A stretch of DNA of 64,000 bases, taken from the NCBI GenBank assembly GCA_016180645.1, contig JACPAV010000005.1, forward strand, positions 62,001 through 126,000. Reading direction: 5' to 3'. This document shows, piece after piece, positions 5,925-12,197 of the stretch. The stretch's first letter is position 1. The number at the start of each line of letters is the position of its first letter. Below the pieces are notes generated by a model that had not been told where the DNA came from, searched no databases, and saw only the letters and a program-made list of their open reading frames with translations. This DNA is from Nitrospirota bacterium. Its GTDB lineage: Bacteria > JACPQY01. Position numbers and translations under genes: made by a program.

Positions 5925-7010
5925 TCAGGCGTTCAGCGCCAGCTCGGGGCCGGACAAGTCGAATCGCGGGTGGCGCCTGCGACGGACTTTGGAGTCCACC
6001 AAACCGCTGATGAGGATCGGAAGGGCGATGGTTGAATCACAATACACCTGGATCTTGCGCGCTCCGCGGGTGATTTTTCCCCACGACTGCGCCTCTTCAA
6101 ACGTCGCGCCCGACAGTCCTCCCCATACCGGCGAATCCTGCGTGATCTGCACGGCGTATTCGTGCGCCGTGTCGCCAAAGCCGATCCACTGCGAGGTCAC
6201 TTGGGCCTGCTGGACGAAATTCTTCGCCACGCCCCCGCCCAGGATGAATATGCCCGTCCCGTGACTCTTGCCGCAGATGACGGCGGTCTCCACCACATCC
6301 GCTATGGTATCCACGCACAGTTTCAGGCCCAGTTTGGCCTGTCCGAAGCCCAGCGCGATTCCCAGCGACGAATCGGCGATCGCCGGACAGAAGACGGGCA
6401 CCTTGGCGCGATAAGCCGTCGACAAGATGCTCGGGCGTTTCTCCAACTTGGCCAGTCGCTCCCCCAGCAGGTAGAGGAACCGACGCGTCGAATAGCGCTG
6501 CGTGGGATCCAGCGATGACGCGAAATCGGCCACGATCTCATCCACGAAATGATACTCCCGCTCGTTCCCGAAGGTGTCATACACGCGGTCGACAAAATGG
6601 TCGCGCAGCACCATGTCGTCCACCTTGTCCGTTCCCTTCCAGTGCGTGCCGCCGAGGCTGTTGACGATATCGTGAAACAGGTTGGCCCCGGTGGAAACCA
6701 GACAGTCGATGTACCGGTTGCGGATCATGTGCATGATGATCTCGCCCATGCCCGCGGGCGTCATCGCGCCGGAAAGGGCCATCATGATCGTCACACGGTC
6801 CTGCACCATTTCCCGAAGGATGGCGAACGCGCGGGCCAGATTGCGCGCTTGGAACGAGACGTCCTCCATCCGCTCCAACACGTCGGCCACACCATCCGCC
6901 TTCGGCTCGAACGGGACGATGGGAGATCTGAACCACCGCTTGGGCCGTTTCGCCTTGTGGGAAAGGTCGTTATAAACCGTGTGGATCTCTTTGGCTTTTT
7001 TGACCGGCAT
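5925..7010 (-). CDS. Deoxyhypusine synthase-family protein (polyamine aminopropyl/aminobutyl transferase)
   Basis: A 361-residue DHS-fold protein. Family features include SGAMTPAGMGEII, STGANLFHDIV, an NAD-binding region and GGGVAKNF, whose lysine matches the position of the imine-forming catalytic lysine of DHS (GGGVxKHH). Bacteria lack eIF5A, so bacterial homologues are thought to act on free polyamines, for example as homospermidine synthase or on agmatine. The overlapping upstream arginine decarboxylase (TGATG at the junction) points to agmatine as a plausible substrate; this is inferred. The ATG at 7010 is chosen because of that overlap; an upstream ATG at 7058 would lie inside the neighbour. 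Confidence 0.85.
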   Translation of the reverse strand: MPVKKAKEIHTVYNDLSHKAKRPKRWFRSPIVPFEPKADGVADVLERMEDVSFQARNLARAFAILREMVQDRVTIMMALSGAMTPAGMGEIIMHMIRNRYIDCLVSTGANLFHDIVNSLGGTHWKGTDKVDDMVLRDHFVDRVYDTFGNEREYHFVDEIVADFASSLDPTQRYSTRRFLYLLGERLAKLEKRPSILSTAYRAKVPVFCPAIADSSLGIALGFGQAKLGLKLCVDTIADVVETAVICGKSHGTGIFILGGGVAKNFVQQAQVTSQWIGFGDTAHEYAVQITQDSPVWGGLSGATFEEAQSWGKITRGARKIQVYCDSTIALPILISGLVDSKVRRRRHPRFDLSGPELALNA

Positions 7011-7564
7011 CAATCCTCCCAATCGGCAAACACGGCGGCCGACAGAACCGTGGTCCACTGACCTTCCCGGCTTCCCACCGCCGATTGCGTGATGTTGTGT
7101 GTCCGGTAGACCTTGCCGCTGATCCGCCAGATTTCCTTGTTCTCATCCCAGCTTTTTTCCGGGTCGAAGCTCGCCCCGACGATCGTCGCCAGCATTCCCG
7201 CCGCCAGGTCTTCCGCGTAGTCTCCGGCCTTTTTCTCCGTCTCGCCGTAACTGTGATGCTCCGACAGGTATCCGTATTGGCGACGGTCCTTCGGCAGCGC
7301 GAGCCCGATCGAGGCCGCGATGAGCCGGTTCGGCTCGTTGCTGTAGGATTCCGCCAGCACCACGTGGACGATCTCCCCGGGTTCGAGCAACTTGACGCCC
7401 TCGTGCCGAGGAATCAGTTTGCATCCCGGCGGGTAGATGCTCGTCACGCGGACGAGATTGTACCGGGCAATATCCGCATCGCGGAGCGCCATCTCGAAGC
7501 TGGTCAATTTTTCCTTGTGACGACCAACGCCTTTGGTCAAAAACATTCGTGTGGGTATTGGCAT
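7010..7564 (-). CDS. Pyruvoyl-dependent arginine decarboxylase
   Basis: Converts arginine to agmatine. The 184-residue protein has the PvlArgDC signature VTSIYPPGCK, where the serine is the expected self-cleavage point giving the pyruvoyl group. Other conserved segments are GEIVHVVLAES, NRLIAASIGLA and the C-terminal VFADW. Length is normal for the bacterial/archaeal family. It lies between an M14-like amidohydrolase (13 bases upstream) and the DHS-family gene, whose start it overlaps, so arginine decarboxylation and polyamine modification are probably co-expressed. Confidence 0.93.
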   Translation of the reverse strand: MPIPTRMFLTKGVGRHKEKLTSFEMALRDADIARYNLVRVTSIYPPGCKLIPRHEGVKLLEPGEIVHVVLAESYSNEPNRLIAASIGLALPKDRRQYGYLSEHHSYGETEKKAGDYAEDLAAGMLATIVGASFDPEKSWDENKEIWRISGKVYRTHNITQSAVGSREGQWTTVLSAAVFADWED

Positions 7565-7577
7565 TCCATTCTCCCTT

Positions 7578-8624
7578 TTAGATTAGAGCGGGCACGCGTT
7601 CTTCGTGCGCCACCAGATGTTTTCTTCGCACCGCCCGTTCCACGAGCGGCAGGGTCCTGTCGAGCTTCGCCACGTGACACACCGGCGCGCCGGGATTCAC
7701 CAGCGGAAGCGTCGTCGCTCCGATGACCAGACCGGTCAGCGGGCTCCGGATCGTGCCGAATTCTCGGCCGAAAGGATTTGTGTTCAGCGCCATCTCTTCC
7801 CCTTCATATACCAGATCGCCCGGTTTCTTGTAGAGAATCAGTATCCCGCCCTTTTCCGCCCGGATCCATTCCGACTTCTTCACAATGATCCGAAAAGCCG
7901 GCGTCACCTTGGTGCCCGTGATCATGCCGAGTTCGATCATGACGTTTCGGATGCCCTCCACCCCCTGGCGTATGAGTCCGTCTTGAAATTTCTGGCTCTC
8001 CCCGGCCTCGTAGAGGAGGGTGGGAACACCCGCCGCCACCGCCGCCCGACGGATGGATCCTTCCGAGCCGCCCGCGTCGATGATGATTTCCTCTCCGAAC
8101 GCCTTGGCCAGACGCCGCACCCACGGGGCGTGCAGGTCGCCGCGCACATGCGGCAGGTTCGTACGGTCCGTGGCCGCCGTGTGCAGATCGATCCCGCAAT
8201 CGCAGTGACGGATGATGTCGTTAAAGATTCGGTGCGCGATCCGGTCCGCCATGTGACCCGACGGATTCCCCGGGAAGTATCGGTTCAAATCCCGACGGTC
8301 CGGCAGATATCGCGTTTGATTGAGAAATCCGAAGCGGTTCACCACCGGAATCAACACCAGGGTTCCCCGCAGGTCCGCGGGACGGGTCCGGCAAATCATC
8401 TGCCGCACCATTTCCACGCCGTTCAGTTCGTCCCCGTGGACCGCCGCCGTGACAAACAGTGTGGGGCCGGACGACTCTCCCGCGATCACCGTGACCGGGA
8501 TCGTCGCCGCCGTCGCCGTGTAGAATTCACTGACCTTGAGATTGATCTCGTAGGTTTCTCCCGGCTGAATCGTCGTGCCGGCGATCCTAAGCGGCTTTTT
8601 TTCTTTCCTTAGCCTTCTCAGCAT
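7578..8624 (-). CDS. Succinylglutamate desuccinylase/aspartoacylase (M14-like) family protein
   Basis: A 348-residue zinc amidohydrolase of the AstE/AspA type. Zinc ligands are seen in AAVHGDEL (HxxE) and DLHT, with supporting NRFGFLNQTRYLPDRRDLNR and NPSGH. The C-terminal beta domain (PGDLVYEGEEMALNTNPFG, LVNPGAPVCHVA) is also typical. Members cleave N-acyl amino acids and often sit beside rimK genes. Here the start lies inside the 3' end of rimK (38-base overlap). The substrate is unknown; context suggests an acyl-amino-acid or glutamyl-amine conjugate. Confidence 0.88.
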   Translation of the reverse strand: MLRRLRKEKKPLRIAGTTIQPGETYEINLKVSEFYTATAATIPVTVIAGESSGPTLFVTAAVHGDELNGVEMVRQMICRTRPADLRGTLVLIPVVNRFGFLNQTRYLPDRRDLNRYFPGNPSGHMADRIAHRIFNDIIRHCDCGIDLHTAATDRTNLPHVRGDLHAPWVRRLAKAFGEEIIIDAGGSEGSIRRAAVAAGVPTLLYEAGESQKFQDGLIRQGVEGIRNVMIELGMITGTKVTPAFRIIVKKSEWIRAEKGGILILYKKPGDLVYEGEEMALNTNPFGREFGTIRSPLTGLVIGATTLPLVNPGAPVCHVAKLDRTLPLVERAVRRKHLVAHEERVPALI

Positions 8625-9489
8625 ATTGCACCGTGTACTCGATGATTTTTCTGGCGACGTCCTGCCCCGTGGCCCGCTCCAGCCCCTCGAAGCCCGGTGA
8701 CGAATTCACCTCCATCACCTTGGGCCCCGACTTCGATTCAATGATATCGACGCCGGCAATGTTCAACGCCAGCGCCCGGGCCGCGGCCACGGCCAGATCC
8801 CGATAGCTTTGCGGAACATCCACCGCCTTCGCCTCACCGCCCTTGTGAATATTCGAGCGGAATTCGCCCGCCCGCGCAATCCGCCGGATGACTCCGATGA
8901 CTTCTCCGCCCACGACCAGCACGCGAAGATCCTCGCCCTTCGATTCCGGCACGTATTCCTGGATCAAAACCTCCCGACCCAGGTTCCATACGGTGTCCAG
9001 GAGGCCTTCGAGCGAGCCCCTTGAATCGGCCATCATCACGCCCACACCCTGGGCGCCCTGGATCAATTTCACGATCACCGGCGTCCCGCCCACGAGTCCG
9101 AGGATCTGATCCAGGTTCCGCGCGTCCCGGCACATGATCGTGCGAGGCACGGCCACACCGTTCATGGCCAGGATCTGGAGGCAGCGCAGTTTGTCACGCG
9201 ACGCGATGATCGATTGCGAGGAGTTCACCACCGGCAGGCCGATCAGTTCCAGTTGTGAAACCGTCGCCAATCCGTAATCCGTGATGGACGCGCCGATGCG
9301 CGGCAAAACCACGTCCGGCGTTTCCAGAGGCTTGTCCTTCACGTAGATCGCGCCCGCGTCCTTCGCCACGACCACCACGCACCGCAACGGATCCAGCACC
9401 ATGACATGGTGTCCCAGTTGAAGCGAGGCCTTGGTGAAGCGGCGCGTCGAGTACAGCGTTCCGCGGCGCGACAGGATCAGGATCTTCAT
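8587..9489 (-). CDS. rimK: RimK-family ATP-grasp amino-acid ligase
   Basis: A 300-residue ATP-grasp ligase of the RimK group, which joins glutamate or similar amino acids to a protein C-terminus or small molecule. Visible are the RimK N-terminal domain (LILSRRGTLYSTRR), ATP-grasp pieces VIVKLIQGAQGVGVMM and LIQEYV, and the Mg-binding end IESKSGPKVMEVNSSPGFEG. It heads a four-gene minus-strand operon (rimK, M14-like, arginine decarboxylase, DHS-like). In E. coli RimK glutamylates ribosomal protein S6; the unusual neighbours here leave the target open. A good promoter lies about 120 bases upstream. Confidence 0.9.
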   Translation of the reverse strand: MKILILSRRGTLYSTRRFTKASLQLGHHVMVLDPLRCVVVVAKDAGAIYVKDKPLETPDVVLPRIGASITDYGLATVSQLELIGLPVVNSSQSIIASRDKLRCLQILAMNGVAVPRTIMCRDARNLDQILGLVGGTPVIVKLIQGAQGVGVMMADSRGSLEGLLDTVWNLGREVLIQEYVPESKGEDLRVLVVGGEVIGVIRRIARAGEFRSNIHKGGEAKAVDVPQSYRDLAVAAARALALNIAGVDIIESKSGPKVMEVNSSPGFEGLERATGQDVARKIIEYTVQYAEKAKERKKAA

Positions 9490-9678: not shown

Positions 9679-10710
9679 ATGAAGAGATTGACGGCACTCG
9701 CCCGCTGCGCAGGCTGAGCGGGCAAGATCGGTCCAGGGGACCTGGACACACTGTTATCTTCGCTCCGTTTCTATCGGGCGCCGGGAGTTTTGTTCGGCGT
9801 CGAGACACGGGGGGACGCGGGAATCGTCCGTCTCCGACCCGACCTCGCGCTGCTCTTCACCGCCGATTTCTTCGCGCCGGTTGTGGACGACCCCCGGGCC
9901 TATGGCCGCATTTCGGCGGCCAATTCCCTCTCGGACATCTGGGCGATGGGCGGAACGCCGATCGCCGCGCTGAATCTCGTGGGGTTTCCCGATTCGCTTC
10001 CGAAGACCGTCCTGCGCGATATCCTGAGGGGCGCTTCCGAAATCTGCGCCGAGGCCGGCGTTTCCATCGTGGGCGGCCACTCCGTGCGCGACGAGGAGCC
10101 CAAGTTTGGACTCGCTGCGGTGGGAACGGTTCACCCGAAGCGCGTGATCCTCAATTCCACGGCCCGGCCGGGCGACTCGCTGATTCTGACCAAAGCCATC
10201 GGCACGGGAGTGGTGACCACTGGCATCAAGCGAGGTCTTGCGCCCGCCTCTGCGATCCGTGCGGCGGTGGCTTCGATGGAATCACTCAACCAGACCGCCG
10301 CCGATGTCATGAGCCGGTTTCGTGTGCATGCCTGCACGGACGTGACGGGATTCGGTCTTCTGGGCCATCTCCACCGCATGGCGCATGCAAGCCGGTGCGG
10401 CGCACGAATTCATTTCTCAACGATGCCCATCCTCTCCGGGGTGATGGAGCTTCTCCAACGCAAGTGCTATCCGGGAGGAACGCTGGCCAATCTGGGTTTC
10501 CTTGAAGGAAAGGTGTCATGGGATCTCGATGGGCCGGTCTATCGCCGGCTCCTCGCGGATCCCCAGACCTCGGGTGGACTCCTCATGGCTGTTCATCCGC
10601 GGGATGCCTCGAAACTCCTGGCCGGCTTGAGAAGGAAGGGAATCGTGCAATCACGCATCATCGGTGAGGTAACGTCCGATCCTCGCCACCGCATACAAGT
10701 TCTTGCCTGA
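9679..10710 (+). CDS. selD: Selenide, water dikinase, selenocysteine-containing (UGA read as Sec)
   Basis: Makes selenophosphate from selenide and ATP for Sec and selenouridine synthesis. The start ATG (9679) is followed in frame by a UGA at 9715-9717, then by an uninterrupted SelD sequence to 10710: FTADFFAPVVDDP, GRISAANSLSDIWAMGG, GVSIVGGHSV, CTDVTGFGLLGHL, DPQTSGGLLM. The UGA falls exactly where SelD has its catalytic Cys/Sec (CAG-U-AGKIGPG), with the essential lysine three residues on. A hairpin suitable as a bacterial SECIS follows at 9731-9747. With Sec the protein is 343 residues, normal for the family. A TACAAT box ends six bases before the ATG, suggesting a leaderless message. Callers that stop at UGA would start this gene at 9790 and lose the active site. 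Confidence 0.93.
9731..9747 (+). promoter_or_regulatory. SECIS-like hairpin of selD
   Basis: GTCCAGG and CCTGGAC form a perfect 7-bp stem with a GGA loop (or 6 bp with loop GGGAC). The loop begins about 20 bases after the UGA at 9715, within the range known for bacterial SECIS elements bound by SelB. Confidence 0.75.
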
Positions 10711-11425: not shown

Positions 11426-11440
11426 GCGACCGCTCTTCCT

Positions 11441-11645
11441 CTAAAGACCCTCCCCCACAAATACACCAACACTCCTCGTAGGGGAGCGCCTTCAGGTGCT
11501 CCCAGTTCGGGAGGGTCTAAAGACCCTCCCCTACCCGTAGGGGAGCGCCTTCGGGTGCTCCCAGTTCGGGAGGGTCTAAAGACCCTCCCCTACCCGTAGG
11601 GGAGCATCTTTAGATGCTCCCTCTTGGATGCTCCCTCTTTCGGGA
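11441..11645. repeat. Tandem class B REP array, 59-base period
   Basis: GTAG feet at 11478, 11537 and 11596 start three units spaced exactly 59 bases apart. Each has an arm such as GGGAGCGCC/GGTGCTCCC followed by GGGAGGGTC/GACCCTCCC and CTAC. A half palindrome precedes (11441) and a truncated one follows. It fills most of the gap between the formyltransferase gene and the small selenoprotein; nothing else is seen there. Confidence 0.9.
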
Positions 11646-11679
11646 GGATCAAAACGGAATTTCTGCTATCATGACCCTG

Positions 11680-11910
11680 ATGGCCGACAAGAAAACAATC
11701 ACGATTTACGGCAAGGCCGGCTGACCTTACACCGCGTCGGCCCGTGAGGATTACGGGCGCAAGGGGTACTCGGTAATCTATTTGGACGTGAAGCAGGACA
11801 AGGCCGCCTTCTCGACATTTCTTGAACTCTCCAAAGGTCGCCGCGACGTCCCGCTGATTCTTGAAAACGATCAGGTCACCATCGGCTACGGAGGCACCTG
11901 AGGGGTTTGA
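11680..11910 (+). CDS. Glutaredoxin-like selenoprotein with two Sec codons (UXX-star type)
   Basis: Reading two in-frame UGA codons as Sec gives a 76-residue thioredoxin-fold protein: TITIYGKAG, then U15 in a U-P-Y-T active site (glutaredoxin CPYC/CPYT position), AREDYGRKGYSVIYLDV, the cis-Pro segment DVPLILEND, and a C-terminus GYGGT-U74-G-V followed by a true stop. A Sec three residues from the end matches the UXX-star description of small selenoproteins. UGA codons are at 11722-11724 and 11899-11901; the terminator is UGA at 11908. Each Sec codon is followed by a hairpin at SECIS distance. The ATG at 11680 is preferred because a TATCAT box ends seven bases before it; an in-frame ATG at 11671 overlaps that box. 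No conventional ORF call would show this gene. Confidence 0.88.
11740..11758 (+). promoter_or_regulatory. SECIS-like hairpin for the first Sec codon of the small selenoprotein
   Basis: GCCCGT and ACGGGC form a 6-bp stem with loop GAGGATT; the loop begins about 21 bases after the UGA at 11722. It lies in coding sequence, as bacterial SECIS elements do. Confidence 0.7.
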
Positions 11911-11911
11911 T

Positions 11912-11928
11912 TCCCCGCGGCGCGGGGA
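11912..11928 (+). promoter_or_regulatory. SECIS-like hairpin for the C-terminal Sec codon
   Basis: CCCCGC and GCGGGG (extended by a T-A pair) form a 7-bp stem with loop GGC. The loop begins 17 bases after the UGA at 11899. Because the gene ends three codons later, the hairpin falls just after the stop codon, which is a striking arrangement; it could also help termination, though no U-run follows. Confidence 0.65.
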
Positions 11929-11986: not shown

Positions 11987-12197
11987 CACGCGGGCTGAAG
12001 CCCCATGCCACGGAGGGTATGGGACCATGATATGTCGCCGCACCACGGATGGTGCGGCATGGAACATGGCCCGCGCCTACCAAGGAGCCATTCCTCCGGT
12101 AGCCGCACCCCCATGCCAAGGACGGCATGGGGCCATGAAATGTCGCCGCGCCACGGATGGCACGGCATGTAACATGGCCTTTAGGGTGCGTCTTCGG
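11987..12197. repeat. Two REPs each split by a 68-base palindromic element
   Basis: Two class A REP palindromes are interrupted at their centres. The first runs ACGCGGGCTGAAG (to 12000), then an insert to 12069, then CCCGCGCCTACC. The second runs GTAGCCGCACCC (from 12099), an insert to about 12178, then TTTAGGGTGCGTC. The inserts share a 68-base core (12002-12069 and 12110-12177) that aligns without gaps. Each holds two hairpins: CCCATGCC with GGTATGGG/GGCATGGG, and GCCGC-type arms around a CGGA loop. This is the whole content of the gap between the selenoprotein and pgsA. Confidence 0.85.

Follow-up and report, generated by a model that had tools for sequence, protein, structure and literature searches.

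Within a 64-kb stretch of DNA from a Nitrospirota bacterium, here called the window, a short gene encodes a glutaredoxin-like protein only if two of its in-frame UGA codons are read as selenocysteine (Sec). The first of these codons lies at the putative active site and the second lies three residues from the C-terminus. The locus raises two questions: whether both codons are recoded, and what a protein this small would do with a second Sec so close to its end.

The gene (11680..11910, plus strand) specifies 76 amino acids. Its frame, read from 11680, is free of stop codons apart from three UGA codons on the same strand. The first Sec codon (11722..11724, in the context GGC UGA CCU UAC ACC) gives U15 of a U-P-Y-T active site, and the second (11899..11901, in the context GGC ACC UGA GGG GUU) gives U74, the third residue from the end. 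The terminating UGA (11908..11910) follows two codons past the second Sec codon. With TGA translated as U, the product reads MADKKTITIYGKAGUPYTASAREDYGRKGYSVIYLDVKQDKAAFSTFLELSKGRRDVPLILENDQVTIGYGGTUGV. The preliminary description of this DNA had claimed two in-frame UGA codons in a glutaredoxin-like frame, one at U-P-Y-T and the other in GGT-U-G-V-stop, and the translation bears out both the shared frame and the two motifs. Translation could start at 11680 or at an in-frame ATG nine bases 5', at 11671. A whole-genome search of the host gave one copy of the gene, with the two TGA codons inside.

Membership in a named selenoprotein family

When scored with Cys written for Sec, the window protein matches the NCBIfam profile NF041114, 'UXX-star selenoprotein family 1', with 108.6 bits against a cut-off of 72, and the match covers positions 1-70 of the 70 in the profile. 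The Pfam glutaredoxin profile PF00462 is also matched, at 26.3 bits against a cut-off of 22.9. In Table 1 of a 2026 review, NF041114 is listed as 'Distant Grx-like protein 1', with a UxxT motif and 2 Sec (PMC13188914). The window protein shares the length and profile coverage of this family, its UxxT motif (U15-P-Y-T18), its two Sec and the placing of one Sec (U74) third from the end, and it differs from the family in host lineage only. Because the review tabulates NF041114 with 2 Sec, the double-Sec design was already published. In the main text of the 2008 paper that is cited for this family, no double-Sec form was found, so the figure of two Sec per family 1 protein is taken here from the 2026 review. 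Judged by its sequence, the window protein does not represent a novel type; it is a genuine new member of UXX-star family 1, which is already known, and the preliminary description had overlooked that the double-Sec form belongs to an already named family. UXX-star families 2 and 3 and the HUGP/GUXX-star fusion (NF041211, NF047338 and NF045501) have a glutaredoxin-like domain and a UXX-star end in common with the window protein, which scores far below their respective cut-offs (49.6, 46.4 and 47.8 bits against 100, 97 and 325).

Relatives of the gene were found by profile search of genome contigs, in which one broken copy served as the entry to the Acidobacteriota. There, 43 of 396 genomes contain matches to NF041114 above the cut-off. 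Two genomes were searched from the phylum of the window, the other of which has no match, and no relatives were found among the viral contigs and plasmids searched. In the homologues that cover the first site, the codon is UGA in 39 of 43 and Cys in the other 4. At the second site, every one of the 42 complete copies has UGA and none has Cys. Homologues with Cys or Sec at both positions, for which the preliminary description had proposed a search, thus exist: they have either residue at the first site and only Sec at the second; among the homologues examined, none ends at the first UGA. The alignment also has an invariant T18 and an invariant Lys, together with conserved V57-P58 and G71-G72.

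The two-UGA frame is beyond chance, given its score to a curated selenoprotein family and the complete homologues with UGA at the second site. A frameshift or sequencing error was also considered, and is ruled out by the conservation of the family. One Acidobacteria copy (L018:3939-4089) retains both UGA codons, with an internal deletion and a change of frame between them; either the gene is broken or the assembly is at fault.

Fold and proposed chemistry

AlphaFold2 models that carry Cys for Sec were made for the window protein and for one relative, with mean pLDDT values of 93.8 and 96.0. The window model has a glutaredoxin fold, with a best TM of ~0.75 to solved Grx structures. Both models assign a strand or bridge to U74-G75 and to the two residues that precede cis-Pro58, the bridge partners being deduced from the DSSP strings. 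No helix follows the GG motif in the models, and the protein ends at GGTUGV. In ordinary glutaredoxins, by comparison, the chain runs on into a helix past the GG motif. Relative to canonical class I (CPYC) glutaredoxins, the window protein keeps the fold, the cis-Pro and the GG motif, and lacks both a CxxC/UxxC motif and the C-terminal helix; because the active site is UxxT, the usual second Cys of CPYC is missing.

Several described glutaredoxins help to interpret this arrangement. Canonical glutaredoxins pair with the glutathione Cys through their main chain next to the cis-proline, and in AtGRXcp a C-terminal Cys is close to the glutathione groove (PMC2879357). The models suggest that the tail of the window protein is positioned next to the cis-proline, at the place that glutathione occupies in the canonical proteins. 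In class II glutaredoxins, a semi-conserved C-terminal Cys and the Cys of the active site become linked in an intramolecular disulfide that thioredoxin can reduce (PMC9854632). The window protein resembles the class II (CGFS) monothiol glutaredoxins, such as yeast Grx5 and E. coli Grx4, in that it has one chalcogen at the active site and a second near the GG motif, such that an intramolecular bond is possible (PMC9854632). Unlike them, it has Sec at both positions and a UPYT site, and it ends where the class II proteins continue into a helix. The cGrx of Clostridium oremlandii, the structures of which are among the best fold matches, also combines a glutaredoxin fold with Sec as the first residue of the active site, but cGrx has a UxxC/S motif and one Sec (PMC13188914).

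Given the tail beside the cis-proline in the models and the disulfide precedent of class II, attack by Sec15 and resolution by Sec74 would be the most likely mechanism. In this scheme, the target of Sec15 would be a bond of the disulfide, selenenyl or glutathionyl type. The intermediate would be resolved by Sec74, from the short tail at the C-terminus, to leave an intramolecular diselenide. The Sec15-Sec74 diselenide would then be opened by another reductant. The tail would replace the C-terminal helix of ordinary glutaredoxins, and would probably lie in the glutathione-binding groove. By analogy and from the models, a diselenide or relay formed by the two Sec is plausible.

A more specific idea can be advanced tentatively, with the odds somewhat against it. 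The tail, Sec-Gly-Val-COO-, may be a built-in mimic of glutathione (Cys-Gly-COO-) that docks in the glutathione groove beside the cis-proline. Its carboxylate would be bound there by the invariant Lys12 or by Arg55, and the protein would be a glutathione-independent glutaredoxin with a diselenide. If true, the mimicry would account for a Sec that, in every member sampled, occupies exactly the third position from the end and is not replaced by Cys. A search with PF02955 (glutathione synthetase) alone gave a RimK-type ligase at 8587-9489 as its sole match, and no clear GshB.

Rather than acting as a redox couple, the Sec pair might bind a metal or metalloid, of the kind of mercury or arsenic, and the protein would then be a small, soluble trap or chaperone. 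The 2026 review mentions Sec as possible metal-binding ligands in the UXX-star family (PMC13188914), the metallochaperone ArsD is among the structural matches, with a TM of only ~0.55, and the lack of Cys at the second site in any homologue would suit such a role. This function is nonetheless unlikely, since the protein retains the UPYT active site of a glutaredoxin, the cis-Pro and the invariant Lys. In addition, no metal-resistance gene was identified adjoining the gene in the window, and the 3.2 kb loci of the relatives show no convincingly recurrent family of neighboring genes. Redox chemistry via a Sec15-Sec74 diselenide is the preferred reading.

RNA elements for the two recodings

The preliminary description had placed a hairpin at the correct SECIS distance after each UGA, the second past the stop codon, and such hairpins are present, with loops that begin 23 nt after the first UGA and 17 nt after the second. 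The bSECIS model calls for G in the first two loop positions, a loop of 3-9 nt, a stem of 4-16 bp, a spacing of 16-37 nt and an energy <= -7.5 (PMC13188914). Both window hairpins are within its limits for spacing, loop, stem and energy. At the gathering score, an Rfam scan of the 64-kb window returned nothing, and a search of the host genome with Rfam SECIS_1 (RF00031) gave a chance-level match only, elsewhere in the genome.

The second hairpin, SECIS 2 (UCCCCGC-GGC-GCGGGGA; 11912..11928, plus strand), is wholly within the 3' untranslated region. It has 7 bp and an energy of -12.2 kcal/mol, which is reached by ~2 of 60 shuffles. Relatives have a G+C-rich hairpin after the second UGA, mostly or wholly past the stop codon, the loop of which is small (GGUC, GGU or GGC, for example). 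The mean energy in the family is -11.8 kcal/mol, compared to -4.3 for shuffles (-5.6 for the best shuffle set) and to -4.5 downstream of ordinary UGA stops, of which the same loci supplied 138 (p = 4e-15, without kinship correction). Because the hairpin was picked by an identical search in the controls, search bias is accounted for. Within the inner stem, C-G, G-C, A-U and U-A pairs interchange with pairing kept, as compensatory pairs. The pairs were counted with a loop-centred Python procedure; MAFFT aligned the 3' hairpins poorly. A transcription terminator was considered as another reading of the 3' hairpin and rejected, as a scan gave no terminator-like site there. SECIS 2 is conserved in the family and is strongly supported.

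The first hairpin, SECIS 1 (GCCCGUGA-GGA-UUACGGGC; 11740..11758, plus strand), is within the coding region, and has 8 bp and an energy of -11.0 kcal/mol; none of 60 shuffles is as good. It is the most stable among the hairpins scored at the first site, where the family mean is -4.5 kcal/mol against -2.4 for shuffles and is not clearly better than that after ordinary UGA stops (p = 0.08). A second signal comes from codon choice. The Ala-Arg pair six and seven codons past the first UGA is encoded by a near-constant GCC CGU in the Sec forms. The Arg at +7 is encoded by CGU in 33 of 40 Sec forms and in none of 4 Cys forms, compared to 14 of 191 for the other Arg codons of the same genes. This synonymous constraint accompanies UGA, as expected from an RNA element. 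The proposal of two SECIS elements is upheld, strongly for the second, whereas SECIS 1 is well supported at a moderate level.

Each of the UGA codons at 11722 and 11899 would be decoded by SelB and tRNA-Sec, the first directed by the coding-region hairpin and the second by the hairpin that closely follows the stop codon. Translation would terminate at the third UGA, with the second hairpin presumably too close to serve there. The stop codon two codons after the second Sec is UGA in 35 of 42 members tallied, TAG in 5 and TAA in 2. Those 35 members thus distinguish, within nine bases, a UGA for Sec insertion from an identical codon for termination.

The family-wide weakness of the first-site hairpins and the appearance of Cys there in four relatives could also mean that only the second UGA is efficiently decoded, with ribosomes often stopping at the first and with that site turning to Cys in some lineages. 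This is improbable, given that UGA is kept at the first site in all the other relatives, that GCC CGU conservation is limited to the UGA forms and that the window has the most stable hairpin scored at the site, one that fits the bSECIS model. Decoding of both UGA codons is thus favored.

Selenocysteine machinery and neighborhood

The preliminary description had noted that the absence of selA, selB or selC would count against its claim. The host genome in fact contains selA, selB above cut-off and a gene for tRNA-Sec (ARAGORN, anticodon UCA), and selD is in the window itself. Among the Acidobacteriota, a strong selA match occurs in 39 of the 43 genomes with the gene, compared to 213 of the 353 without it (p = 4e-5); the four gene-bearing genomes that lack a strong match may be incomplete assemblies.

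The selD gene for selenide, water dikinase (9679..10710, plus strand), which matches TIGR00476 at 363 bits against a cut-off of 125 with TGA read as Cys, is ~1 kb upstream of the UXX-star gene. It has its own in-frame UGA at 9715 (C-A-G-U-A-G-K), followed by a hairpin that folds as SECIS-like, GUCCAGG-GGA-CCUGGAC, the GGA loop of which is common to SECIS 1. Without readthrough, the listed open reading frame of selD begins late, at 9790. The product of selD would supply selenophosphate.

Upstream of the UXX-star gene are selD and a formyltransferase-like gene, followed by palindromic repeats. The repeat units, in 59-nt and 78-nt copies, flank the UXX-star gene at 11440-11621 and 11994-12179. 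Farther upstream, at 5925-9489 on the minus strand, is a row of genes that suggests polyamine-related chemistry, since it encodes a RimK-family ligase, a DoeB/aspartoacylase-like deacylase, a pyruvoyl-dependent arginine decarboxylase and a deoxyhypusine-synthase-like protein. Although repeats on both flanks and a visibly broken relative (L018) could point to decay of a glutaredoxin gene, with stop codons that arose by chance, this is hardly credible, as it is contradicted by family conservation, and the window gene has an intact frame, a full-profile match, hairpins in place and a whole Sec pathway in its genome.

Implications for the family

Taken as a whole, the reading of the window protein as a selenoprotein of a known family, with a glutaredoxin fold, two SECIS-directed Sec and Sec15-Sec74 diselenide chemistry, is given a probability of roughly 0.65. 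UXX-star family 1 is experimentally uncharacterized and known almost wholly from sequence, and the window adds a member from a sparsely sampled phylum, with two genomes searched. The comparison of relatives also gives independent evidence at the RNA level for both recodings, by covariation in the 3' untranslated region for SECIS 2 and by a synonymous-codon signature for SECIS 1. Finally, the analysis supplies a testable idea for the exact placing of the second Sec three residues from the end of the protein.
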